Part shown: positions 2,293-56,171 of the stretch, piece after piece
Layout of the letters: every line of letters begins with the position of its first letter
How positions within the stretch are numbered: the first letter of the stretch is position 1
Source of the DNA: Trissonchulus latispiculum
Taxonomy: Eukaryota > Nematoda > Enoplea > Enoplida > Ironidae
Assembly: GCA_030248195.1 (NCBI GenBank)
Contig: JASAND010013323.1
Span: 1 to 64,000, forward strand
Direction: 5' to 3'
DNA: 64,000 bases
Program-made: the position numbers and the translations under genes
Notes under the pieces: model-generated
The model's database searches: none
Seen by the model: only the letters and a program-made list of their open reading frames with translations
Told to the model about the DNA's origin: nothing

Positions 2293-5200
2293 ATGTCTTC
2301 GATTTCTCAATTGAACGCTGCTATTTCAACTGGAGTTTGGAAAGGAAATCCCGTTATTACCCAAGCCCTAAGAGACCAAGCCATCTCCCTCATAAAAACT
2401 GAGTGGGACGGCAAGGAAGTTGTTGGCTCAGATGAATTCTGGACCTACGCCCAAACCTTACCCCAACCTATTACCCTACCTACTTCCCACCCCTGTCCCA
2501 TTTGCAATGAGTCATTCCCCAATTTGGCCGAGCTGAAGAAGCACAAGGCAATCCATTCTAACAACCCCATTTTTCAGTGTCCACGTTGTGAAAAGACCTT
2601 TACCAGGAAATATAACTTGGAAAGGCACACCATAAAGTTTCACCCAACAGTTGCTCCCCCTTCCTATGAGTGCCGAAAATGCGGCTTTACATATAGGACC
2701 TACAAAGGTTATCAGGGCCATCTTAGGACTCACCGGGAAGCCCCCAAACTTCAGGACCCCAAAACTTTAAGGCAAACTCACTTTTCGAATCTTCCAACTG
2801 AGGACGCCCCCAAGCTGACTAGGAGTATTGTAAAGGATCTCCCAGAAGACCTGGCCCAAATTTACAGAGAACATTGGAGTAGAATCCGAACACGGTACTT
2901 CGTCTCCTCTGGAATCCAAAATAGATACAACTTTAGGTTAGACAGCCCTTTCCAACTTAAGGACCTGGTTAAAATTATATTCAAACTTCAAAGATGGCAA
3001 TTCAAATTTAACCTATCCTTCGGTTTTGTTCTTAGGAATATCGAAGACGGGGAATTGAGGTATTACTACCCTTCCGGAAATAACCGGTATTTTGATGAGC
3101 CTATCCACATTTCAAATGAGGGAGATTTAGGAAAAGTTTTCTATGAACTTGAGAGAGGGGACATCCTTGAATGGGTTAGACAGCAGCGCCCCAATACAAA
3201 GTGGACAGTCCTGAAAATTACAAATGTTTGCTTCTACATTAATAAACTTATCTCCTATCCTGTTGGCGAGGCTCGGTATCTTCCTGATTACGTTAAAAAT
3301 AACCGGGGTCTCAATGCTCTAGTGAGAAATGATCATACTGGAAGACCATATCTAGATGAAAAATGCCTCTTTAGATGTCTAGCCCTCGCCTTTGGATCGA
3401 AACTGAATGCATTAGAAGAAAGAACTAATGAGCTAATTGAACAGTGGGTACAACCTGGAGAAGACTTTAATGGGGTCTGCCTCGAGGACTTGGATGAGAT
3501 AGAGGAAAAGTTTGATATTGCAATTACGGTTTACGAACTTGGTCCCACAGTTGAAGAAGCCGATGAGGAGCCTGAAGATCTGAATGAGCTTATAATTCAA
3601 AATCATGAAAGAGATCAGGAAATTACAGATATAGCTGCCAAACTTATTCGACGGCCTCTGGGAAAGCGGTCCAGAAAAATGGCCATTAACATTTATGAAA
3701 ATCATTTCTCGTTTATTAAAAATTTAAATAAGTTCACTCTTACCTGGAAATGTTCCAATTGCGAAAAACTTTTTCATCATCATAACGATTTCATGAGACA
3801 CTCCAAAAGCTGTGAGGTGGGCATCAAACGTATCTTTCCTGGTGGAGGAGTTGGGCCTACAAAAACGATCCTGGATAAAATTAGTGAGCTAGGAATCCCT
3901 GTGCCAGAATGGTACTACCCCTTTAGAATTGCCTATGATTTCGAATGTATGTTCAAACCTACAACTAAAAAAAGCGGTCCAAAATTGATCTACGAACAGG
4001 ACCTAATCCCAGCATCGGTTTCTATTGCATCCAATGTCCCAGGCTATGAGAATCCAAATTGTCTAATAACTACCGGGGATCCCTATGAGTTAGTGGTCCG
4101 AATGAAGGACTACATGGAAGAGATCGCCGATAAGGCATACGAACTTCTTAGGGATATCTACGGGCCTACCCTTTCCGGTCTAGCTGAACACGAGAAGCTC
4201 CTGGCCGAATTCGAGGGATGGCTTAAAGCAGTACCCACATTAGGATTCAATTCTGGAAAATTCGATATGAACCTTATAAAATGTTGTCTGATTACCAACT
4301 TACTCCTAAATGGAAAAGACATCAATTATACTGTCAAAAAGAATAACAACTACATGGCCCTCTCTACCCCCAAATTGTACTTTCTTGATATTACAAATTA
4401 CCTTGCCGCTGGAACATCCTACAAAAAGTGGCTAAAGGGTTTTAAAATTGAGGACCAAAAGGGCGCCTTCCCATACGAAGCCTTCACTTCCCTCGAGTTC
4501 CTTGATAAAGGTTTCCCCCATCGTGACTTATACTATTCTACTCTTAAGCAACAGGAAATTTCAGATGAGGACTTCATAGCCGTTGTAGCAGCCTGGAGAA
4601 AATACAAATTTAAGAATATTAGGGATCAGCTAATTTGGTACAATAATTTGGATGTAGGGCCCTTCCTTCAAGCTACCGAAAAAATGGTAGAATTTTGGAA
4701 AACTATGGGAATTGATATGTTCAAAAGTGGGGCTATCTCCCTCCCTGGTCTAGCATATAAACACATGATGAATAAAATACCTAAGCACACGATCCTTCCT
4801 CTTTTCAGCAGATTCACTCAAAATTGGCATAAACTTATTAAGGATAACATAGTCGGGGGTCCTAGCTTGGTGTTTCACAGATATCATGAAGCCGGGGTAA
4901 CTGAAATTACAAATGGGTTTAAAGTTGCACAAATTTTTGGGTTCGACGCCAACGCCTTATATCTCTGGTGCACTATGCAAGAAATGCCCACTGGTCTGTA
5001 TGCCGAATGGAAACCCACAGAAGATGGGAAATTTAAAAGGTGGCTACAAAAGGGCAGGAAAGAAGCAATGTGGCTGGAGTATATGGCAAAGGCACTGGGA
5101 GTTCGGGTTGAACACGCTTACAACGGGGGCCAAAAAAGGATTGGAAAATCCAAAGTTGATGGGTGGGTCTCGGAGAAGAATCTAGTTCTACAATTTCATG

Positions 5201-6579
5201 GGTGCTATTTCCACGGACACGGTTGCGAGTTAGATAGAAATCAGGTTCCGGAAGATCGAACTAAACGAAGGGAAAGAACTGAAAGAGTCTCCCAGGCAAT
5301 TAAAGATGGAGGTTTCGACTTGATTGAAAAGTGGGAATGTGAATTTGATAAAGATTTAAAAGATTCCCCGGATATGCAAGAGTTTATGGAAGAACACTTT
5401 AATCTCCCAAAGAAAAGATCAGTCCTTACATTTGCACAGTTAGTTACCCAAATTCAGGCTAATAGAATTTTTGGACTAGTTGAGGTGGACATTGAGGTTC
5501 CTGAGGAAAAGAAAGAACATTTTGCAGAGATGACTCCTATATTCAAAAATGTAGAAATTTCTAAGGAAGACATCGGGGATCACATGAGAACTTTCTGCGA
5601 TTTGAATGATCTTATGAACCAACCTAGAAGGGGTCTAATTGGAAGCTACTTTGGAAAGAAAATTCTTCTAGCTACACCTCTAATTAAATGGTATTTAAAA
5701 CATGGCCTCAAAATTACTAAGATTTATCAGGCAATTGAGTTCAAACCTAAAGCTTGTTTCAAAGAACTGGGAGATGAAGTTACTTACCACCGATCTGCAG
5801 CCGATTCCGATCCCGATTTGGCACTTAAAGGGGAAATGTTTAAACTCTTGGGAAATTCCTACTATGGTCGTACAATTACAAATCTGGAAAAGCACCAGGA
5901 TGTAAAATATTGTCAAAGGTCAGGAGCCAGCAGGGAGGTAAACGGGTGGAGATTTCGAAGGTTAGACGATCTGGGAAATGGGGTATATGAAGTTCAGTCG
6001 GCTAAATCAAAAATTGTTTACAGGTTACCAGAATTAGTGGGATTTTTCGTCTATCAGTACGCCAAACTTAGGATGCTACAATTCTACTATGACTGCCTGA
6101 AACCCAATTTGTGGCCCGAAACCTTCCAATTGTGTCAAATGGACACCGACTCCCTCTATTTCGCCTGCTCTTCCAAAAATTTAAGTGATTGTGTCCCTAT
6201 TAGAAATGAGAAACAATGGAATAAGGCTCTCAAGGATTTCTTTGTTTTAGATCCCTCCCAAAAAAGAATACCCGGTTTGTTCAAGGAGGAATGGACCGGG
6301 GACGGCATAATTGCCCTCTGTAGTAAGACTTACCTAGCTTGGGGAAAGACGAATAAAGTCTCCCATAAAGGTGTAAGCAAAGCCCTAAATAAGTATGACT
6401 CCGAAGATTTCAAAGAAGTTTTAGAAACAGGAAATACAAAATCTGGAGAAAATAGGGGTCTTAGAATGGTAGATGGGGATATGGTGAAATACTTCCAAAC
6501 TAAAGACGCCCTTCCCTACCTCTACCCTAAAAGAAAAGTGCTAGCCGATGGGGTGACAACTGTTCCTTTAGATATTTGA
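2293..6579 (+). CDS. Protein-primed family B DNA polymerase of a Polinton/adintovirus-like element, with zinc fingers, OTU-like and Vsr-like domains
   Basis: The protein has 1428 residues and an intact frame. Order: three C2H2 fingers (C68/C71-H84/H88; C96/C99-H112/H117; C127/C130-H143/H147); an OTU-like block with C358 in DEKCLFRCLAL and H471 in NHFSF; a C487/C490 finger; 3'-5' exonuclease motifs ExoI (D549-E551), ExoII (N653..F657-D658) and ExoIII (Y783..D787); polymerase motif A (D885, FDANALYL), motif B (K1184..N1188-S-Y-Y-G1192) and motif C (D1284-T-D1286-S). Between A and B lies a Vsr-endonuclease-like insertion: D956-G, FHGCYFHGHGC (968-978), R-rich segment, KWECE (1013-1017). Such PolBs replicate Polinton-type elements by protein priming. 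All catalytic motifs are present and there is no stop or frameshift, so the copy may be recent. Start chosen at ATG 2293, first in frame after the leader. Divergent to the ATPase/membrane genes. Confidence 0.93.
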   Translation: MSSISQLNAAISTGVWKGNPVITQALRDQAISLIKTEWDGKEVVGSDEFWTYAQTLPQPITLPTSHPCPICNESFPNLAELKKHKAIHSNNPIFQCPRCEKTFTRKYNLERHTIKFHPTVAPPSYECRKCGFTYRTYKGYQGHLRTHREAPKLQDPKTLRQTHFSNLPTEDAPKLTRSIVKDLPEDLAQIYREHWSRIRTRYFVSSGIQNRYNFRLDSPFQLKDLVKIIFKLQRWQFKFNLSFGFVLRNIEDGELRYYYPSGNNRYFDEPIHISNEGDLGKVFYELERGDILEWVRQQRPNTKWTVLKITNVCFYINKLISYPVGEARYLPDYVKNNRGLNALVRNDHTGRPYLDEKCLFRCLALAFGSKLNALEERTNELIEQWVQPGEDFNGVCLEDLDEIEEKFDIAITVYELGPTVEEADEEPEDLNELIIQNHERDQEITDIAAKLIRRPLGKRSRKMAINIYENHFSFIKNLNKFTLTWKCSNCEKLFHHHNDFMRHSKSCEVGIKRIFPGGGVGPTKTILDKISELGIPVPEWYYPFRIAYDFECMFKPTTKKSGPKLIYEQDLIPASVSIASNVPGYENPNCLITTGDPYELVVRMKDYMEEIADKAYELLRDIYGPTLSGLAEHEKLLAEFEGWLKAVPTLGFNSGKFDMNLIKCCLITNLLLNGKDINYTVKKNNNYMALSTPKLYFLDITNYLAAGTSYKKWLKGFKIEDQKGAFPYEAFTSLEFLDKGFPHRDLYYSTLKQQEISDEDFIAVVAAWRKYKFKNIRDQLIWYNNLDVGPFLQATEKMVEFWKTMGIDMFKSGAISLPGLAYKHMMNKIPKHTILPLFSRFTQNWHKLIKDNIVGGPSLVFHRYHEAGVTEITNGFKVAQIFGFDANALYLWCTMQEMPTGLYAEWKPTEDGKFKRWLQKGRKEAMWLEYMAKALGVRVEHAYNGGQKRIGKSKVDGWVSEKNLVLQFHGCYFHGHGCELDRNQVPEDRTKRRERTERVSQAIKDGGFDLIEKWECEFDKDLKDSPDMQEFMEEHFNLPKKRSVLTFAQLVTQIQANRIFGLVEVDIEVPEEKKEHFAEMTPIFKNVEISKEDIGDHMRTFCDLNDLMNQPRRGLIGSYFGKKILLATPLIKWYLKHGLKITKIYQAIEFKPKACFKELGDEVTYHRSAADSDPDLALKGEMFKLLGNSYYGRTITNLEKHQDVKYCQRSGASREVNGWRFRRLDDLGNGVYEVQSAKSKIVYRLPELVGFFVYQYAKLRMLQFYYDCLKPNLWPETFQLCQMDTDSLYFACSSKNLSDCVPIRNEKQWNKALKDFFVLDPSQKRIPGLFKEEWTGDGIIALCSKTYLAWGKTNKVSHKGVSKALNKYDSEDFKEVLETGNTKSGENRGLRMVDGDMVKYFQTKDALPYLYPKRKVLADGVTTVPLDI

Positions 6580-8520: not shown

Positions 8521-9107
8521 TTGGTTTGTTTATATTCAATCGATACACAGTCTCATTGGACATTTTATCAATGCCTATTACCTGGAGTTAGCTCTTCTCG
8601 CTGCCTATCGCCTACATATGGGCGATGGCCGGTTTGGCATATGTAATGGAATTAATAAAATAAAATATTAAAAGTAACCTAAAATCAGCTTTAATAGAAG
8701 TTTCAAAATAATCAAATCACCGGGACGAATTCTCATGCCCTGGAATTGGAAAGAAGAGCGAAGGTCATCATCATGGGAAGTAATTGTCGAATAGTATCCA
8801 AGCAATAATTGTATAGATTATCATGTTTGTCTAGCTAGAGTTGCCAGTATTCAGTAGAAATCAGGAAATTCACCAATAGCGTTCAAGGTTCACATTCAAT
8901 TAAGACATTAATATTAGTTTTAAACACGATTTTAAGTCTAATTAAGTTTTACTAATGCGTGACTATTAATGATACTACTTCAGAAAAGGTGAAGTAAGGA
9001 CACGTTAGCCCTAATCCCTTCGGTTTCCCATCCCTTCAACAAATGGAGTTGTTACTCTCACTCGAAGATAGCAGTCGACAACTAAATTAAACTTAGGTGA
9101 TTTGGTG
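8521..9107. other. No gene seen
   Basis: AT-rich and unassigned. At 9045-9058 a GAG-TTGTTA-CTC mini-hairpin resembles the TTGTTAC hairpins of the 33.9-39.6 kb region. Confidence 0.45.
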
Positions 9108-9511
9108 AGTATAGCCCATAATAGTCAAGTATAGCCCTCCCTGTAAAGATAACTTAATTACTAATGCTCGTATGCTAGTCAGCAGGAAGTTATAAACCCG
9201 AAACACAAAGTTTATGTGTATAATTGAGGCGAAAATTAGTCATAAAATTGCCTATAAAATGGAAATTGGCATTAAAAATAGCAAATATTGGAAGATGGTT
9301 CACTATCAGATACAAAATAGCTAAGTACGTAGTTAGATAGGGTTAATTAGTAATAATTAAGTGTTTATTAGATAATAATTGGTTAATTCTATGATTTTTG
9401 GTCGAAAATTGACTTGGGCTTATGTGAAAGAGAATTTGTTTCTGATTCAAAAAATCCAAACCCGACTTTTCAACTCCCAATAATAAGAAAGTTATAAAGG
9501 AAAATGTTTTT

Positions 9512-9758
9512 GTAAGATTACTTTTTGTGTCGTTAATCTTACCACTCCAAAAAGGAGTGTTCTAAAATTGGTTTTCTTTTTAGTTTGACTTAAGTCAAAC
9601 CTTTTCCTTTTCCATTGTCTGGGAGGTTGTCTACCTCCCAGACTACACCTGAGTCAGGTGTTGTTCCCCTTTCCCTCTTTCTTTTCTTTCTCTCTCTGCT
9701 AGGCCTCTTTCTTCTGGGCCTAGCAGTTGTCCTCGCTTGAACTTTTGGCCGAGGACAA
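9512..9758 (+). other. Seven consecutive stem-loops in copy A
   Basis: Hairpins follow one another with short linkers: GTAAGATTA/TAATCTTAC; CACTCC/GGAGTG; GTTTGACTT/AAGTCAAAC; GTCTGGGAGGT/ACCTCCCAGAC; ACACCTG/CAGGTGT; CTGCTAGGCC/GGCCTAGCAG; TTGTCCTCG/CGAGGACAA. All stems are perfect and all recur in copy B at about 34384-34628. Confidence 0.9.
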
Positions 9759-10024
9759 GGCCAACAAAGAAAAAGGAAAGGAAATAGTAGGATAAGCCCA
9801 AGACATTGTATTTAGAGGGGCCTTAGCTCCCTCAATAATAATTAATATATTAATATAAGTAGCTAGGTAAAGGTAGATAGGTACGATAATTTCGCCAAGT
9901 TTCGGCACCCAAAATATATCAGAAATGGGTCAGTTGGGGGCAATAAATCCAAAATCTCATTAATTTCCACCCCCAACGGCCAGCTGGGTCAGCCCGCTGC
10001 AGCGCAGCACACAGAAAAGGTGGC

Positions 10025-10060
10025 AAGCTTCTAGAAGGTTCTAGAACCTTCTAGAAGCTT
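10025..10060. repeat. 36-bp perfect palindrome
   Basis: The left half AAGCTTCTAGAAGGTTCT is followed directly by its exact reverse complement, and GGCA/TGCC outside it extends the stem with one bulge. In copy B (35021-35058) the same site carries two changes on one arm only. Confidence 0.95.
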
Positions 10061-10224
10061 TGCCTTAAAATCAAAGAAGAAGCGAGCTCCAGGTCTCGCT
10101 AATGACCTGTCACCGAGCTGTCAGCAAAACTGTCAGCTCGGTCCAAAATTTTTATTTCAAATCAGTGTTCGTTGAGTTGCAGCCGGAGTAGATTGCTTTT
10201 CCCCTCCCCCTGGTGCGTTCCTTA

Positions 10225-33695: not shown

Positions 33696-33850
33696 TGTCA
33701 CTACAGCACCTCCGACCCGAAAAATTCGGGCCCGGGGTGGGGATCGAACCCACAACCTTCGGTTAACTAGACCGACGCTCTACCGATTGAGCCACCCGGG
33801 CACAATCGAACCAAGCTTAAGTTGGAATTCGTTCCCAAACTGTAGTGACA
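33696..33850. mobile_element. 155-bp inverted-repeat element carrying a tRNA-like gene
   Basis: TGTCACTACAG (33696-33706) and CTGTAGTGACA (33840-33850) are exact inverted repeats enclosing the tRNA-like sequence with about 30-40 bp on each side. Confidence 0.7.
33730..33801 (-). tRNA. tRNA-like gene, anticodon loop CTAGTTA (AGT, Thr as folded)
   Basis: The minus strand folds into a full 72-nt cloverleaf: acceptor GCCCGGG/CCCGGGC, D-arm GCTC-GAGC, anticodon stem TCGGT/ACCGA, 5-nt variable loop, T-arm GTGGG-TTCGATC-CCCAC. A and B boxes (TGGCTCAATCGG, GGTTCGATCC) are intact and a T5 terminator follows 5 nt downstream. The loop reads C-T-AGT-T-A, formally tRNA-Thr(AGT), but position 37 is T rather than purine, atypical for a working tRNA. 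No CCA is encoded. Being flanked by inverted repeats inside a transposon, it is probably a tRNA-derived SINE/MITE module or a captured tRNA; only expression or copy number would tell. Confidence 0.7.
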
Positions 33851-33929
33851 TTTTAGAAGACGCTTTCGCGAGACTAGATATCCCAATAAAGTGAGGAGAC
33901 CCTTTGTACTAAACATTTTGACGCATGCA

Positions 33930-33971
33930 TTAGTGCAGTTGTTACCTGCATAGGGAATTCAGCGCACCCTC
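33930..33971 (+). repeat. 42-bp direct repeat, left copy
   Basis: TTAGTGCAGTTGTTACCTGC and following bases to ACCCTC; same sequence with one change at 35219-35260, on either side of hairpin element copy B. Contains a TTGTTAC hairpin (33934-33950). Confidence 0.9.
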
Positions 33972-33979
33972 TATAGCCC

Positions 33980-35221
33980 AGTATAGCCCATACTAGTCAA
34001 GTATAGCCCTCCCTGTAAAGATAACTTAATTACTAATGCTCGTATGCTAGTCAGCAGGAAGTTATAAACCCGAAACACAAAGTTTATGTGTATAATTAAG
34101 GCGAAAATTAGTCATAAAATTGCCTATAAAATGGAAATTGGCATTAAAAATAGCAAATATTGGAAGATGGTTCACTATCAGATACAAAATAGCTAAGTAC
34201 GTAGTTAGATAGGGTTAATTAGTAATAATTAAGTGTTTATTAGATAATAATTGGTTAATTCTATGATTTTAGGCCGAAAATTGACTTGGGCTTATGTGAA
34301 AGAGAATTTGATTCTGATTCAAAAAATCCAAACCCGACTTTTCAACTCCCAATAATAAGAAAGTTATAAAGGAAAATGTTTTTGTAAGATTACTTTTTGT
34401 GTCGTAATCTTACCACTCCAAAAAGGAGTGTTCTAAAATTGGTTTTCTTTTTAGTTTGACTTAAGTCAAACCTTTTCCTTTTCCATTGTCTGGGAGGTTG
34501 TCTACCTCCCAGACTACACCTGAGTCAGGTGTTGTTCCCCTTTCCCTCTTTCTTTTTTTTCTCTCTCTGCTAGGCCTCTTTCTTCTGGGCCTAGCAGTTG
34601 TCCTCGCTTGAACTTTTGGCCGAGGACAAGGCCAACAAAGAAAAAGGAAAGGAAATAGTAGGATAAGCCCAAGACATTGTATTTAGAGGGGGCTTAGCTC
34701 CCTCAATAATAATTAATATATTAATATAAGTAGCTAGGTAAAGGTAGATAGGTACGTAGATCATGATGATGTAATCTTTAACTCATAGAAAATTGTACAT
34801 TTTGTGTAATAATCAAATGAAGTTGTGAAATTTCACGAAAATTCCCCTTGGTTATGTTTATGTGTTAAAGAAAGTTTTGCAAAATTTCGCCAAGTTTCGG
34901 CACCCAAAATATATCAAAAATGGGTCAGTTGGGGGGCAATAAATCCAAAATCTCATTAATTTCCACCCCCAACGGCCAGCTGGGTCAGCCCGCTGCAGCG
35001 CAGCACACGGAAAAGGTGGCAAGCTTCCAGAAAGTTCTAGAACCTTCTAGAAGCTTTGCCTTAAAATCAAAGAAGAAGCGAGCTCCAGGTCTCGCTAATG
35101 ACCTGTCACCGAGCTGTCAGCAAAACTGTCAGCTCGGTCCCAAAATTTTCATTTCAAATCAGTGTTCGTTGAGTTGCAACCGAAGTAGGTTGCTTTTCCC
35201 CTTCCCCTGGTGCGTTCCTTA
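33980..35221 (+). mobile_element. Hairpin-dense non-coding element, copy B
   Basis: Near-identical, same orientation as 9108-10224, about 24.9 kb away, with the same ends AGTATAGCCCAT and GCGTTCCTTA. It keeps about 125 bp (34757-34880) absent from copy A. All stems of copy A are present, though the long palindrome has two changes here. It is preceded by extra TATAGCCC words and enclosed by a 42-bp direct repeat. The ORFs within are not protein-like. It is followed without a break by more hairpin-dense DNA. Confidence 0.75.
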
Positions 35222-35260
35222 GTGCAGTTGCTACCTGCATAGGGAATTCAGCGCACCCTC
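35219..35260 (+). repeat. 42-bp direct repeat, right copy
   Basis: As the copy at 33930-33971 but with loop TTGCTAC instead of TTGTTAC. Confidence 0.9.
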
Positions 35261-35281
35261 CCAGGTTAGGACGCGTAGGGA

Positions 35282-35315
35282 CTTTTTCTCTGACCCGCAC
35301 TGGTCAGAGAAAAAG
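35282..35315. other. 14-bp perfect stem-loop
   Basis: CTTTTTCTCTGACC / GGTCAGAGAAAAAG with loop CGCACT. Bordered by repeats, no ORF. Confidence 0.95.
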
Positions 35316-36301
35316 AAATTGAGTTTTTTAACGCGAACGCTACACTTTGTTTTAGGGGCCAAATGGGTGTGTTGTGCCCGGCCAAACTTTTAATAACATT
35401 CAGGCCCTTTTGGCCAACTTTTTCCTTTATTATGGAGGCCTTTGGCCATTTTTTATTATGCAGTTTTTAAGGCATTCAGGCCATGTTTTCTTTCCATTTT
35501 TATGGGGCCATTGGGCCAGTTTTTTATACGATTTTGGGCCAAAGAGCCCCAGTTTTCACTCAACATTCTGGGCCTAAGGCCATATTTTAGTTATGATAGC
35601 ATGCGTGGGCCTTTAGGCCACTTTTACTTTGTTTTATTTCATTTTCTTCGTTCTTCATTATTATTTTATTATTTTAAATAAAGGGACAGCTCATGTAAAC
35701 CCCTCCTGTTGATGGAGGTCTTGAGAATTGTCCCTATTTCTGTTTTTCTGTTTTTCGTGCCGACACTCTCTATATATCGAGGTTTTCTGACCTCCACCTC
35801 CGATTATTTCTATTCATTTATTCTGTTATTTTTAGTTGCACTCTTCTGGTCAAGCCACGACCAAGTTTTACTAATTTTAATAAGGTCCTTTTTGGCCTAA
35901 ATTTGGGGTTTAAAGTAGAGTATTGGGATATCTAAGTGGGGACCCAACCTCCAAGTTTGAGTTAGAGGGTCCCTTTGCTACGACCCTATTTTTATTAAGT
36001 TAGTTAATGGCAATGTTCACCCCACAGCCGGCAACTAGGAGTTGCCAGCCATATTGTTTTAATCTCAGGCTTTGTTAAGCCTTAAAATCACTGTTTGTAA
36101 TTTGTACTGCTTGTCGTAGGTCGGTAACCAAAAATAATAGGTTATTAAAAGCGCATGAGCGAAGTTTAAAACAAGAATCCCAAAAATAATCTCTTGCTCT
36201 TTCTAAATAATTAATAATTAAGTGTTTCACGGGGAATGACCGGCTTCCCCATTAATTAATCTAATTATTGTTAGTAGTCCTGTTTAATAATAGTTTTGTT
36301 T

Positions 36302-36328
36302 AGTAATGATTGCTTGGCAATCATTACT
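36302..36328. other. 12-bp perfect stem with 3-nt loop
   Basis: AGTAATGATTGC / GCAATCATTACT, loop TTG. Confidence 0.95.
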
Positions 36329-36386
36329 CACACGGCTTTCGTAAAATACAAAGTTCTCAAAATCACCAAAGTTCTGCGCTATAAGC

Positions 36387-36410
36387 TGAGTTTTAGATGC
36401 CTAAAACTCA
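36387..36410. other. 10-bp perfect stem-loop
   Basis: TGAGTTTTAG / CTAAAACTCA, loop ATGC. Confidence 0.95.
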
Positions 36411-37300
36411 CAACAAATTTTCGTTCAAATTTAGTTAATTTGGTGCGCTTGAATTAATAATTAGCAGCATAGGTTACTTAATATTCATTAGAGTTAGTTT
36501 CCATTTAGGTTGTTTGTAATCATGTCTGTTTCTAGGATTAGCTAGATAAGTAATTACCTAAGAAATTGTATGTCTGTGTGTGTGCATGAATTGTATAAAT
36601 GGCATTGTATTGGCTTCCATGACTGTATGCGCGTTGACTCGCGGAAACTCCTTCTGTCCGATGAAGGTTGTGAGCATCGCTGGAGTGGTCAAGACTCAGA
36701 TCTTAAGCAGGAATGAAGTGTATGTGTGATTTGTATGAATGATTATATTCTTTATTAATGAGAACTTGTTTAGTCTGAATGTTGCATAAGTGAGGTATAA
36801 GCGGTTATTGACGTAGGTATTGTGTAAATGTTGTATGATTGTGATTAATTGACAAATAGGATTACGTAGTTCAATACTAGATTACCTAGGACCTCTGTAT
36901 GTACGCTTTATGTAATATAGTTGTCAATCGTAATCGAGCAAGTGACTGCCTGAATGGTTATTGATTCCCTGTGTGCATGATTTGTATGAAGTGCCGAAAC
37001 TATATCAGAACTCCTATAGTACGCAGGAAAAGTAGTAATAAGTAATGTAGTTTCAGGTTGCAAGTCGTGTATCTGGAAGTTTGCGAGTATTTGGTTGCGT
37101 AGGAAATCTGGGTTTAGGTACTGTTTAGCAAATATGCAAATGAGGTTAAGGCTATAGGACCTAGAGTCACGGGGACTCCGTATTGAGTCCTCATCAGCTT
37201 GAATCTGGATATCCTCGATTCGTCCCCGTAAGTCACTCTTTGTCAAAACCACCAGTTTTGTGAATTTATCTAGCCTTCAACGTTTAATACTCATAAAATA

Positions 37301-37600
37301 GGGAGTTGTTACCTTCCCTTGGTAGAACCCAATAAAGAACAGAAGTTCCACACTAAATTATGACGTTTTCATTAAATTTGTGCGTTAACTCTCTTTTAAC
37401 CACTGATGTTTGTTAAGAGCAGGAAGTTGTTACCTTCCTCACTTAAACTCGCGAAACTAAAAGCTCTACATTCAAGTATTGTGTTCTGGTCAAACTCACG
37501 TGCAAATCGCTTTCTAATTAAGTAACACTTATCAAAGATAGGAAGTTGTTACCTTCCTTGCTAGGACCCGGAAAAACAGAAGGTCCTAAACTTGATCACC
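37301..37600 (+). repeat. Three diverged ~120-bp units each opening with a TTGTTAC hairpin
   Basis: GGGAG, GGAAG and GGAAG stems with loop TTGTTAC and CTTCC arms begin at 37301, 37422 and 37541. In units 1 and 3 a second hairpin follows: TAGAACC...AGTTCCA (37323-37350) and TAGGACC...GGTCCTA (37562-37588), showing a compensatory G-C to A-T change. The rest of the units is diverged. Confidence 0.8.
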
Positions 37601-37761
37601 TTAACCAACTTAATGTTTCCTGTGTTAGACGAATAAATGGGTACTTATCTGCTGTTAAAGGACCCCAAAAGTATATCAAATTCGAGTAATAGGTTTTAAT
37701 CGTACAGAAGCAGACTGTACAAAGAGAAATCAAGTTGAAATCACAGTTTCACATCGAAGGC

Positions 37762-37793
37762 ACAATTTCTTGCACAAGAACGCAAGAAATTGT
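37762..37793. other. 12-bp perfect stem-loop
   Basis: ACAATTTCTTGC / GCAAGAAATTGT with an 8-nt loop. Confidence 0.95.
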
Positions 37794-38367
37794 CCTAAAA
37801 ACTAACGTTTTACTTAAAGCCAATTTTAAGTATCGTGATCTTACTCAAATCATTCAGAACTTGTGTTAATCCGCTTGAATCACGAATTTTCACAACAAAT
37901 TTGACTTGTACAAGTTTGTTCTAAGTTCAGAAAGCCAAAATGTGAGTAATGGTTGCTGGGTTCGAATCCCGCACCTATAACTTGTATTAATGGGTTTTAA
38001 CCCATTTGATTCAGGTGCGGAGCTTTCACCTGTCCTGCCAGGATCAAAGTCAGATTGTCAGTCATCGGAGTCTCAGTGCTTACAGTAATTGATTAGTGAT
38101 CAGCTCAGTCGAAGAATACGGATATAGATATATACTGGAACAGTCATTTGAATCGGAATCAGCTTTGCTAAGGTACTTTGAGAACCAGTTCAGACTATTT
38201 GGGGAACGATTACGGCAGAGACAATCACAGATACAGCACCAGGATCGACAGTGGGACCTAAAACCTAACAACGAAAGTCTAACCTTGTTCTAGTCTATTC
38301 TAAAGTGACTCTTATTCTTTCGACCTAAAAAGATGAATCTTTTCGAACTAATCATCCGTCTCATTGA

Positions 38368-38384
38368 AGGGGTTGTTACCCCCT
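38368..38384 (+). other. TTGTTAC hairpin with AGGGG/CCCCT stem
   Basis: Same heptaloop as the 37.3-37.5 kb hairpins with an unrelated stem. Confidence 0.9.
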
Positions 38385-38546
38385 GCCCTTGCGCCTAACT
38401 AATTCAGCGGTTATCTCAGTCATTCGGAAGTAGAGAATTTAACGAAGAGATTAAATTAAACTTAACCTGTACTAACCCCATAAACGGACCAGGAATCTCC
38501 CCAACCGGACCGCCCTTGTGTTTGACCCCTTGGCGACCGTATAGCA

Positions 38547-38577
38547 TCCGAAAGTGCTATTGTTACTAGCATTTCGG
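38547..38577 (+). other. TTGTTAC hairpin with TGCTA/TAGCA stem
   Basis: The 5-bp stem (38555-38559 / 38567-38571) is extended by CCGAAA/TTTCGG with one bulged G. Confidence 0.9.
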
Positions 38578-39179
38578 GCTCACCCAAAGACCGGAAACCT
38601 TGCACTACTAATCCCTTTAATCTAGTTAATTTAAATTGTGTAGTAGCTTGTTTTTTATTGATATTGTATTATCCTTTAGTAAGGAGGACGGAAGAAGAGT
38701 AATAACTTAACCACACGAACACAAGCATATAGGGACTGCACAATAGAGTTTAGTAATAGGCTAAACCCTTGTTAGTTAAGATAGTCAAGAAAGGAAAGGA
38801 AGAGGAATATAGTAGAGTTGAGTTGAGTTTAGCTATGGGAACCTTGTCCCTAATAACAATTAATAATCAGGGTAAATCAGATACTGGCAACTCTGGCAAA
38901 CCACTGTTGTTTGTCTAATTGTTTATACAGCATATAGTTTGTGATTTGTAACCTGTTTTATCCCCTGTACGCACTATAATAATCCTGTTCATTGTTTATT
39001 GTCATTATTATTATTGTTAATACCACTATAGCTATCTTTATTAAACTGTTGTGTCCTAATTTTGAATCCACTGACTAGGACATAAGGATCAGATCAAGAT
39101 TTGGATTCATAGCCCCTGCACAAGTAAGTGTTAAAATTGAACCCTTGGTCCCGACAAAGACATCGCCATCATTGTGCTG

Positions 39180-39205
39180 GAATCTTGATTTGGTAATCAA
39201 GATTC
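39180..39205. other. 11-bp perfect stem-loop
   Basis: GAATCTTGATT / AATCAAGATTC with loop TGGT. Confidence 0.95.
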
Positions 39206-39600
39206 TCAATCAGTGTTCTTTGATACAGACCTGATTCAACTATCCAGAAACGGCAAGTGTCGACCCCGCTTGCTACTGATATCCCTTGGATCCCCATCCG
39301 CTTCAAACGAACTCACACCTAGACCCCATCCAGGTTGACCGCAAGGAATCTTTGGTTCTGGACAAATCACCTTCCGAAGATCCTGTGCCTAAGTTTATCC
39401 TCATCGATAAACGAGTCGACCTTCCGTGTACTCGAAGTGGTTGATACCCAGAGTCAGTCGTGATAGACTGTTGCGCTGTTTGGAATCCCTATCTCACCCA
39501 CTTCATTACACATAGCATGCCATCACCTTTATATGGTGTGAAGTCTGACTATACTGAACTTAGTAAAATGCTGTTGACTGACTTTTGATTACTAGGATAA

Positions 39601-47474: not shown

Positions 47475-49752
47475 TCATATAGAGTGCACAATTGCCGGTA
47501 GTTTGAAAGTTACTTTCTTTGTCTGTTGGGTACTAGCATCCCCAATACCAAAAGCAGGTTTTACCCTGTCTATTGATATGGTTTCTTGGTGGCTGTTGTT
47601 CTGGATAGTGACGGTCTTGTCCGTCCTGGCAACGACTTTGTATGGGCCCGTGTATGGTCTTTGGAGGCTCCGCTGCTGGGTTTTCTCTTTGTGAATCCAG
47701 ATATGGGTAGCTGTATCGAGGCCTTTTGGCACATGTGTTTTGGTGTTGTACAGACGTTGCGGTGGTTGAAATGTAGCTGTCGTTCTTCTGATCGCCTCGA
47801 CAAGTGATGCTGCGGAAAGGCAAGACGCATTCGTGGACTGCTTTTGAAAGTAGGCACTAGGAAGACTCACGGTCTCACCGAATACCATTTGTGATGGTGC
47901 GAAACCATGCACATTTACAGTATTCCGAAGACCGAGCAAAATCAGTGGTAGGTTGTCCGACCATGACTTACCATCGCACCGAGCTTTTAGGGAATTTTTG
48001 AGGGTACGGTGAAAGCGTTCGATGGCTCCGTTAGCCTGAGGGTGATAGGCAGTTGTTGTTCTGTGGGATACTTGTAGCAGTCGCAGCGTGTCTTTCCATA
48101 CCTGGGATTCAAACTGTGTGCCGCGGTCGGATATGACAGTTTCTGGTATTCCATATCTGCTTATCCACGCTGCAACAAAGCTCTTTGCCACAGCCTCGGC
48201 CGATATGGTTGTTAATGTTGCGACTTCCATCCAGCAGGTATACCTATCAATCATTGTCAGAAGATATCTGTGATTGCGGGAAGGAGGCAATGGGCCAACC
48301 AAATCGATGTGTACGGTTTTAAACCTCCCTTTTGTTGGGATGACCATTATTGGTGACTTTGTGTGTTTTGTTATCTTGGACGACTGGCATTCGATGCACT
48401 CGCGACACCACTGCCTTATGTCGCGATGCATCTTTGGCCAGATGTATTTGGATGAAATGAGTCGCTGGGTTGCCTTTATTCCGGGATGATGGAGGCAATG
48501 CATTTCTTGGAAGACAGGCTTTCGGATTTCCTTCGCAAGAAATGGGCGCTTTATCCCATTTTTCTCGGAGCATACGAGTGTTGTATTGTTGGGAAGTACA
48601 ACTGTTGTTATGTCAACTCCGCTTCGATTGAAGAAAGCTTGCAAGTCTTCGTCAGTGGCTTGTGACTGCGCTACCGCGTAACTGTCACACAGAGAGACAG
48701 CCGTTACGCGAGACAAGCAGTCTGCCACGACGTTGGTTGTTCCAGCCACGTGGACAATTGGGGCGTTGAATTCTGAAATGTAGGAAAGCCAACGAGTTTG
48801 TTGCATGGTAGGGTTTTTCATGCTGAGACAGTGAATGAGGGGTTTGTGGTCTGTCTTTATAGTGAACTTTTCCCCTTCTAACCATGAGAAATGTTTGAGG
48901 CTGTAGTAGATAGCTAGTAATTCCCTGTCGTAGGCTGATCTTTTTGCGTCTGCAGGCGTCAACTTCTTCGAGTAGAATGCCAACGGTTCCACGGTTTCTC
49001 TCCGGCATTTGATTCCTGCTGCAAAACAGCTCCAATTGCATAGCCGGAAGCGTCTGTTGTAAGCGATAGTTTGGCTTGTGTCTTAGGGTGTCGGAGCAAT
49101 GTGGCGTTAACCACACTTTGTTTCAGGTCACTGAAGGCCTGATCTGCCCTTACATCCCAATCAAGCTTCGTGTTTTTGTCCCTTGTAGTCCTTGTTAAAT
49201 CTGTCAGAGGAGAGGCTGTTTCGGAAAAGTGTGGAACAAATCTATGATAAAAGCCGCACATTCCCAAAAACCGCTTTAGTTGCTTTACTGTTTCTGGTTT
49301 TGGGAATTCACTGATGGCCTTTGTCTTTCGTGGGTCTGGTTGTATTCCTTTGTCGCTCACTCGAACGCCTAAGAAGCCAATTTCTTTTTGGAAAAATTGG
49401 CACTTTGTAGGCTTGATGTACAGTCCATTGTCTGACAATAGCTTGAATACTGTATCGAGATGTTGTATATGTTGCTGGATTGAGCGACTTCCGATAAGTA
49501 GGTCGTCTACGTAATTCCCTACGTAGTCTATTTCCTTCAATAAACTATCCATGAATCTCTGGAAAGTTTGTGCCGAGTTTCGAAGACCAAATGGCATCCT
49601 TTTATACAAGAATAGACCAAATGGCGTTGTTATTGCTGTTTTAGGCTGGTCTTCTAGGGCGACGGGAATGAGATGGTAAGCTTTCACTAAGTCTAGCTTA
49701 GAGAAAACGGAACAGCCTTCAAACTTAGCTACCACATCGGCTGCATCGGCTG
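47475..49752 (-). pseudogene. pol: Gypsy Pol fragment: RT - RNase H - integrase, one frameshift
   Basis: RT starts mid-domain at the LTR junction ([16 protein letters not shown]) and keeps [17 protein letters not shown] and the catalytic YVDDLL (49498-49515). The RT frame runs to 48959; the RNase H frame ([18 protein letters not shown]) opens before it at about 49010. A single-base shift therefore lies near 49010-49020 between RT-connection and RNase H. Integrase follows intact: HHCC finger (HHPGIKATQ...WCRECIECQ), DDE core D in HIDLVGPLP, D in VISDRGTQF, E in NGAIERFHRTL, then a chromodomain-less C-terminal GPYKVV segment, stop at 47475. It cannot make Gag or full RT, so it is a dead copy. 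Confidence 0.93.
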
Positions 49753-55019: not shown

Positions 55020-56171
55020 CAGTCCTTGTCAGAAATAAGTTTCTTATTTTCGCGAATGTTCGCAGTTTCGCGAAGACATTCGACACGAAACATTTTGATG
55101 AATGTTCGCGAAGGGTCGAATGCAGAGTCTTTTGTGCATTCGCAGTTTTTCTGACATGTCAAAACAAACAGCAGGAGTGCCTGCTGCTTTAACTGAATTG
55201 CTAGTATCCACCGGCCAACTGTTCAGTTTTACCTCTGTGTAGTATAGAGCTTTGGACTGGCAGCTGTGCAATAAAAGCAAGTTTAAGCTTAAGCTTTTGA
55301 CAAGGAATCAATCACGTCCTGCCGCGCTGCGAAGGAGAATTCAAGCCGACCTTCGCGAAAGTTATGTAAAACCAAGAGTCCATGATTTTCTTCTATTATC
55401 AAGAAGAAGAGTAAGCCACTAGAGTTCTCCTCTTCTTGGCATTGCGTAACGGTGCTCCGACCACAATGCACGAATCTTTCCCAGTTTGGGGGGGTCGACA
55501 GGTATACCCCCTCCGTTTGGTGGTGGGGGGGGGTAGCCGAAAGTGGTCCCCGTTTCGTGGGAGGGTAGCCAAAAGTGGTCCCCGTTTGGGGGGGGATCCC
55601 TAAAAGAGGTCCCCGTTTGGGGAGGGGGTCGCTGAAAGAGGTCCCCGTTTGGGGGAGGGGTCGTTCAGGCAGGCTAAGTTTGGCCCATCCTGATTGGCTG
55701 AAGGCGACCCCCCGCCCCAAACGGGGACCACTTTTTGTGACCCCCCCAAACGGGGACCAGTTATTGTGACCCCCCAAACGGGGACCCATTTTCGAATAGA
55801 ACAAAACTACCGTAGTCCTTTGCTTTTGCTAGACCTCCCCCAAACGGAGGAGGGGGGTTTCTGCAATCTGATTGGCTGTTGGCTACCCCCCCCCCCCCAA
55901 CAAACGGGGACCTCTTTTTGGCTACCCCCCCCCACCAAACGGAGGGGGGTATGCGCTGTCAATTCGGTCGACCCCTCCCCCAAATGGGGGAACATTAGCA
56001 TATTGCGGTCAGAGCACCGTTACGTAATGCCAAGAAGAGGAGCCCACTAGTGGCTTACTCTTCTTCTTTATAATAATGCAATTATGCACTCTTGGTAAAA
56101 CTAAATTCGCAAATTCGCGAAAGCCTTTCGCATTCGCCTTCGCGAAGAAACGTATTTCTGACCAGGACTGT
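55020..56171. mobile_element. Tc1-like TIR element (TA TSD) containing a foldback element
   Basis: CAGTCCTTGTCAGAAATA (55020-55037) faces TATTTCTGACCAGGACTG (56154-56171), with TA on each outer side. Subterminal DNA has repeated TTCGCGAA octamers (six). No transposase; the core is occupied by the foldback element 55373-56094. Confidence 0.8.
55373..56094. mobile_element. CAAGAGT foldback element, 722 bp, arms of CCCCGTTTGGGG repeats, exact 7-bp TSD
   Basis: CAAGAGTCCATGAT ... ATTATGCACTCTTG, with GTAAAAC on both sides (55366-55372, 56095-56101). Outer arms pair (CTCCTCTTCTTGGCATTGCG / CGTAATGCCAAGAAGAGGAG region). Inner arms are tandem GGTCCCCGTTTGGGG units in one orientation (55500-55665) and CCCCAAACGGGGACC units in the other (55710-55990). 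Long ORFs here are repeat artefacts. Confidence 0.9.

Follow-up and report, generated by a model that had tools for sequence, protein, structure and literature searches.

A recurring UUGUUA loop on different hairpin stems in the giant long terminal repeat of a gypsy-like retrotransposon of Trissonchulus latispiculum

Ogre of legumes and Burro of planarians are giant Ty3/gypsy-like long terminal repeat (LTR) retrotransposons with a retrotrans_gag-type gag and a CCHC motif, and Ogre LTRs reach 1.9-6.5 kb (PMC6431247, in part). In retroviruses, the single knuckle of the Moloney murine leukemia virus (MoMuLV) nucleocapsid protein (NC) binds exposed UCUG, several copies of which become exposed in the viral leader; these packaging signals, like the stem-loops of human immunodeficiency virus type 1 (HIV-1), place an unpaired G next to U at several sites of the 5′ leader (PMC7599994, in part). 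The dispersed packaging signals of single-stranded RNA viruses such as MS2 are many stem-loops with a common loop recognition motif, spread over the virus genomes (PMC6281560, in part). Here we describe hairpins that share the loop UUGUUA(C) in a 64,000-nucleotide stretch of the nematode Trissonchulus latispiculum (contig JASAND010013323.1, positions 1 to 64,000; hereafter, the window), where they lie in the giant LTR of an apparently gypsy-type retrotransposon.

The LTR hairpins reproduce the pattern of packaging signals in that several stem-loops carry a common loop on different stems. They differ from the retroviral signals in using one hexamer loop on about ten hairpins distributed along ~4.4 kb of the LTR, and from those of single-stranded RNA viruses in being confined to the LTR in the stretches scanned. 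The loops have the same orientation as the sense strand of gag. The likeness to Ogre and Burro rests on gag and LTR size; the sections of PMC6431247 used here mention no shared-loop hairpin array for them, and a limited search of open-licence literature found no LTR retrotransposon with such an array.

Hairpins of the window and the repeat that carries them

A first-pass annotation of the window had listed seven stem-loops with the heptaloop TTGTTAC on stems of different sequence. All seven are present on the + strand, six with TTGTTAC on 5-bp stems and one with TTGCTAC: gtgcag-TTGTTAC-ctgcat (33933-33951), gtgcag-TTGCTAC-ctgcat (35222-35240), gggag-TTGTTAC-cttcc with one G-T pair (37301-37317), aggaag-TTGTTAC-cttcct at both 37421-37439 and 37540-37558, aggggTTGTTACcccct (38368-38384) and aagtgcta-TTGTTAC-tagcattt (38552-38574). 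The list was correct in its members and incomplete; on the same strand we add aggct-TTGTTA-agcct (36067-36082) and, with a variant loop, ggaatcttgat-TTGGTA-atcaagattct (39179-39206; the loop is TTGGCA in 20 of 30 right-end loci). Nor are the seven independent. The first hairpin duplicates the second, 33930-33971 being a repeat of 35219-35260 with one difference, and those at 37301, 37421 and 37540 are tandem copies (units 1 to 3) of a ~120-bp unit, so that about four separate placements remain. Two outlying variants had also been reported. The hairpin gtctgggagg-TTGTCTA-cctcccagac occurs at 9617-9643 as described and again at 34488-34514 (+ strand), and is among the conserved helices discussed below. 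The word GAG-TTGTTA-CTC at 9046 exists, as a hexaloop on a 4-bp stem rather than a heptaloop; a TTGTTAC heptaloop with a 5-bp stem takes its place in 4 of 11 two-ended copies of the repeat.

As a word, TTGTTAC is not over-represented in the window (15 occurrences, 13.3 expected), and what sets it apart is its placement in hairpin loops. The concern that shuffled sequence might give as many such hairpins did not materialize: positions 33900-38600 hold six, while among 1000 dinucleotide shuffles of the same region one TTGTTAC hairpin appeared in two shuffles and two appeared in none. For heptaloops of any sequence, the maximum number of hairpins with one loop in common was two across 300 of these shuffles.

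The window holds one giant LTR, 8642-39510, with CATA on both sides as a target-site duplication (8638-8641, where it precedes TGTAATGG, and 39511-39514, read at the LTR end). Its 5′ part of about 1.58 kb (8642-10224, + strand) starts TGTAATGGAATTAA, a left boundary common to other copies. An insertion of ~23.7 kb (10225-33929), with TTA at both junctions, then splits the LTR at position ~1.58 kb, where other copies are continuous. A duplicated LTR piece with the first hairpin and a few extra bases (33930-33979, + strand) follows, and the rest of the LTR (33980-39510, + strand) finishes CCACTTCATTACA. About 490 bp found in other copies are missing from the window LTR at 37246. Although 33980-35221 repeats 9108-10224, we rejected these two 1.2-kb copies as the LTRs of a 25-kb element, since the CATA duplicates enclose the pair and other copies are uninterrupted here.

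We searched the genome (734 Mb, 21,732 contigs) with GGAAGTTGTTACCTTCC, which occurs 361 + 313 times, against none for the reversed control. Twenty loci of about 8 kb (nineteen of 8001 bp, one of 5980 bp) were sampled from the first 100 or so places listed, chosen for a close pair of GGAAGTTGTTACCTTCC sites. Downstream of the close pair, and on its strand, all 20 carry the AAGTGCTA hairpin; some loci have other hairpins too, and the window sequence aligns with every one. The aligned unit has TGTAATGGAATTAA at its start and CCACTTCATTACA at its end, with inverted TG...CA tips (TGTAATG...CATTACA). Copies with both ends (n = 11) measure 6360-6565 bp, corresponding to a ~6.4-kb LTR, and are poor in open reading frames: six of the 11 lack any stop-free stretch of at least 110 codons, and the maximum in any is 151 codons. 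Besides the window, 4-bp target duplications match in eight of 11 other two-ended copies; L020 and L028 are mismatched, and L027 continues into internal sequence. Genome searches with the right and left ends returned 1564 first-look and 507 candidates, respectively, 40 of which were scored in each case. Judged by these counts, the copy number of the LTR is in the hundreds.

Beyond the right end, seven of the 30 loci read (the window's own included) continue into CGGTAAA...TTTGGAGCCCCCAGTGAGGA, which resembles a primer-binding site; TGGAGCCCCCAGTGAGGA, ~17 nt past the LTR, opens with TGG as expected of such a site, and no tRNA was matched to it. At the polypurine-tract position before the left end, the one copy read (L073) has only GTAGAGGT. 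A gag-like frame follows in five of the seven loci (L051, where it is broken, L053, L054, L055 and L063), and L044 and L062 have other sequence further downstream. The sole gag-like stretch scanned against Pfam, the 439 amino acids read in L055, matches Retrotrans_gag (3.8e-8) and one CCHC knuckle (1.2e-4). A comparison of the gag stretch with 3668 candidates gave no relative at E ≤ 1e-3, and the viral_contigs collection holds neither a gag relative nor an exact 19-mer hairpin match. On contig C19445 the same repeat flanks an internal coding region: two LTR right ends lie 20.3 kb apart on one strand, with the gag-like stretch (L051) after the first and the left end of the second read in L073. 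This is not a simple two-LTR element, because 95 bp of the internal start also follow the second LTR (L044). On C16819 (G000; right ends 8.4 kb apart) and C19844 (L062; two right ends 759 bp apart) there are copies whose internal parts are short.

Because of the shared ends, the 4-bp duplications, the primer-binding-site-like stretch and the gag-like frame, we place the hairpins in the giant LTR of a retrotransposon that seems to be of the gypsy type. They are not a free-standing element of unknown kind but parts of a single large LTR. The first-pass annotation had named simple copying of one hairpin as a refutation, and in part this is what we see, since the genome matches examined are copies of one large LTR and each site is copied along with it; what survives is the occurrence of one loop on unrelated stems at different sites inside the LTR.

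Conserved helices and the recurring loop

Conservation was assessed in an alignment of 21 copies, namely the 20 loci and window stretch 33980-39513; ten are partial, and identity to copy L015 is 0.67-0.88. Hairpin voting over these copies yields 35 conserved helices with 282 pairs, 32 of which have two-sided changes, and 248 of 5303 cells in the helices are unpaired. Twelve column-shuffled alignments (60-column blocks) give one to six helices and zero to two pairs with two-sided change. Stems have a mean column identity of 0.907 and loops of 0.827, compared with 0.755 in the remainder. On a structure derived solely from L015, pairing survives 155 of 268 two-sided changes (58%), compared with 30-43% when partners are slid by 1-3 columns. 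Five copies have 8-13 of the strongest hairpins per LTR, where shuffles average 0.1-0.5 and six other 6-kb stretches of the window have 0-5.

Within this alignment we counted loop words at sites present in at least three copies, requiring a hairpin of at least 5 bp. TTGTTA is a hairpin loop at 10 of its 21 sites, compared with 226 of 12353 for all hexamers; the runner-up is its own variant TTGTCA (3/11). The heptamer TTGTTAC is a loop at five of eight sites (background 77/12099), and the conserved core of the loop is UUGUUA, with a seventh loop base that is variable or absent. In L015 the ten sites are 1713, 1853, 2478, 3653, 4210, 4330, 4449, 5290, 5477 and 6139. Three of them (4210, 4330 and 4449) are the tandem repeats, which are also the only sites that resemble one another in a self-comparison of L015; the flanks of sites 407, 984, 1713, 5290 and 5477 have nothing in common beyond short words. 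Orientation is fixed: TTGYYA words in the LTR pieces of the window are loops in 8 of 23 cases on the + strand and 0 of 12 on the - strand, and outside the LTR in 3 of 90 and 2 of 83. None of eight internal stretches scanned (L044 not among them) has a TTGYYA loop.

Individual sites are kept to different degrees. All 21 aligned copies share the inner stem GGAAG/CTTCC and loop of tandem unit 3 (37540-37558), with the sixth pair lost in L028; unit 2 (37421-37439) is in 14 of 21 and identical there. The loop of the 38552 hairpin (L015 site 5477) is identical in all 21 copies, and among 30 right-end loci the hairpin has the same form in 27 and was not found in three. At site 5290 the same loci give AGGGG-TTGTTAC-CCCCT in 18, a TTGTCAC version in three, CGGGG/CCCCG in one, GGGGG/CCCCC in two, other or broken forms in three and none in three, the altered stems occurring with loop variants of the hairpin seen at 38368-38384. 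The 35222-35240 hairpin has TTGTTAC, TTGGTA or TTGTTGC in other copies, and gtgcaa-TTGTTA-ttgcat in L014. Site 6139, gttca-TTGTTAC-tgaac, is in three of five divergent copies as aligned (L011, L019 and L026); L017, truncated before this site in the alignment, carries it too, and L016 is without it. At a given site the stem does not vary freely and is mostly constant between copies. The annotation's idea of a structure recognized by its loop is supported, in that the loop is kept while its surroundings diverge in 21 copies, TTGTTA is looped at ten of 21 sites and flank similarity is absent outside the tandem set; these observations do not choose between RNA and single-stranded DNA.

Several familiar identities were set aside. 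Kissing or dimerization loops are disfavoured because the complement GTAACAA is so scarce (six times, in 5 of 21 copies), and TTGTTAC is not self-complementary. The TTAC of the loop resembles the geminivirus nonanucleotide; a rolling-circle (HUH) origin does not fit sites that are internal and many per LTR in a unit with LTR ends. The tRNA anticodon arm has the same 5 bp and 7 nt, and neither a tRNA (ARAGORN, all eight loci scanned) nor an Rfam match above the gathering score (all four loci scanned) was found, e-value matches to mir-1277 and CrcZ being far below gathering. The ~120-bp spacing that could suggest an array of stand-alone small-RNA genes is that of the three tandem units within the LTR. 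Separately, a second loop is shared within the repeat: many copies have the octaloop TGTYCGAT on the stems CCTCC/GGAGG and CCTTC/GAAGG (L015 positions 2109 and 3059, about 35700 and 36650 in the window).

What might read the loop

The reading that we favour, though with somewhat less than even confidence, is that the hairpins are loop-recognized protein-binding sites in the 5′ leader RNA of the element, most likely packaging signals for its Gag. Three candidate signals on the + strand suggest the layout. A TTCTAGAA palindrome array (35021-35056, also 10025-10060), which we take by its motif to resemble heat-shock elements, is paired in 97% of cells and kept in LTR copies; through it the retrotransposon may be heat-inducible. 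TCAGTG (35159-35173) presumably marks an initiator and putative transcription start, and a putative polyadenylation site is suggested at 35674-35759 by AATAAA with a GT-rich tract and, in L015, a GGGACAG...CTGTCCC hairpin behind it. Their succession suggests the order U3, start, polyadenylation, and if that order is right the ten scored loop sites lie downstream of the start, in R-U5. Transcription would begin near TCAGTG at LTR position ~1645 and polyadenylation would fall near ~2100, which would put the loops, from site 1713 onward, in the RNA between cap and gag. Each loop would display an unpaired G flanked by U to the CCHC Gag of the element, the stems serving to present it, and several Gag molecules would assemble on the leader RNA and package it. 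Protein binding, transcript ends and the strand of action are what we infer from sequence. The recurring loop suggests a putative docking site for an RNA-binding protein that aids the element's spread. More tentatively, the ~6.4-kb LTR could act as an extensive structured leader RNA whose loop code consists of a single word, UUGUUA, which one protein would read repeatedly on about ten hairpins of different stems, as a multivalent packaging or regulatory platform.

A number of observations weigh against this reading. The proposed start and polyadenylation sites were assigned from sequence motifs, and LTR site ~407 and the variants at 467 and 984 lie upstream of the proposed start. The UCUG to which MoMuLV NC binds is in a linker (PMC7599994, in part), whereas a hairpin loop is proposed here. 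Five frames of L071 (5 kb) and L072 (1.4 kb) contain no Pfam domain past gag below E 0.05, and pol was not seen there. The helix votes and the alignments themselves lean toward structure, which the column shuffle corrects only in part, and helices found in shuffles have a paired-cell share (0.887-0.971) similar to the real one (0.953). One-sided stem changes remain paired in 419 of 1019 cases (41%), no different from slid partners (38-45%), and much of the variation between copies is probably decay after insertion. An apparent excess of G-U over A-C cells when detection tolerates G-U (222 vs 116) vanishes once detection is made strand-symmetric (169 vs 162), which leaves no clear excess in U5 (149 vs 136) or U3 (55 vs 58); we count this test as no evidence. 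Folding z-scores are alike on both strands (L015 -1.34/-1.33, L019 -0.78/-1.03, elsewhere in the window -0.09/-0.21). Because the G-U test is neutral and the strands fold alike, an RNA rather than a DNA role stays open to doubt, and the fixed orientation of the loop word is the only observation that favours it.

The same neutral results count in favour of a DNA-level role, with cruciforms or single-stranded DNA serving as sites for integrase, a transcription factor or recombination, and at least one conserved palindrome, the TTCTAGAA array, does resemble a protein-binding DNA palindrome. We nevertheless hold such a role improbable, given the single orientation of the loop word in the window LTR pieces and stem sequences whose freedom would be unusual for double-stranded DNA sites. 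A somewhat better, still small, chance goes to a host RNA-binding protein, for example one of the Brat/TRIM-NHL kind, that reads looped UUGUUA to localize, repress or export the element RNA. The RNAcompete consensus of the Brat NHL domain is UUGUUAA and its crystal ligand UUGUUGU (PMC9070667, in part), sharing the UUGUUA core found here, and a variable or absent seventh base suits this reader. Brat, however, prefers linear single-stranded RNA (PMC9070667, in part), whereas the sites here are looped, so that the kept stems would go unexplained, and an element would be expected to lose repressor sites by selection unless they were useful to it.

A reader of the loop might be dispensed with altogether. 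If the leader served translation, by internal entry or shunting through its several kilobases, or the strand transfers of reverse transcription, the shared loop would be a structural module; the majority of the 35 conserved helices lack a UUGUUA loop, further structure lies near the putative polyadenylation site, and a ~6.4-kb LTR in which 11 copies have no stop-free stretch beyond 151 codons would suit such a role. We regard this as unlikely, since a purely architectural function leaves one hexamer looped at ten sites unexplained. Least credible is passive copying, in which the hairpins are incidental and their apparent conservation reflects recent shared ancestry of the LTR copies. The confinement of the examined matches to copied LTRs and the indifference of one-sided changes to partner sliding agree with it, but stems and loops are more conserved than the remainder of the same copies, two-sided changes keep pairing more often than with slid partners, and one loop recurs at ten sites.

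Surroundings and implications

The LTR has a further conserved part. Its most conserved 50-nt bin (4851-4900 of L015, scoring 1.00 in the divergent group) holds TGCTGGGTTCGAATCCCGCACC (37954-37975, + strand), which resembles a tRNA T-arm or B-box; the T-arm/B-box-like GGGTTCGAATCCC is followed there by nested hairpins. The only tRNA in the window is an unrelated tRNA-Thr(AGT) gene (33700-33850), between inverted GTCACTACAG and CTGTAGTGAC. Elsewhere in the window, a 1428-amino-acid open reading frame with C2H2 fingers (2293-6579) is probably a mobile or viral-type family-B polymerase gene; many of its relatives have DNA_pol_B_2 (PF03175), the named ones coming from lancelet, sea urchin, sea star and sea anemone. 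A separate gypsy-type element with reverse transcriptase, RNase H and integrase in two frames lies on the - strand at 47475-49735, and C/G-rich tandem arrays with a unit of about 30 bp occupy 55524-55948.

We know of no explanation for the persistence, in some retrotransposons, of LTRs of several kilobases without long reading frames. If the LTR of this element keeps dozens of hairpins and re-uses one loop, its extra length would carry RNA signals. The hundreds of diverged copies in one genome make that structure testable by comparison, and the shared loop, as a hairpin probe, is a short, testable handle for finding the protein that would read it.

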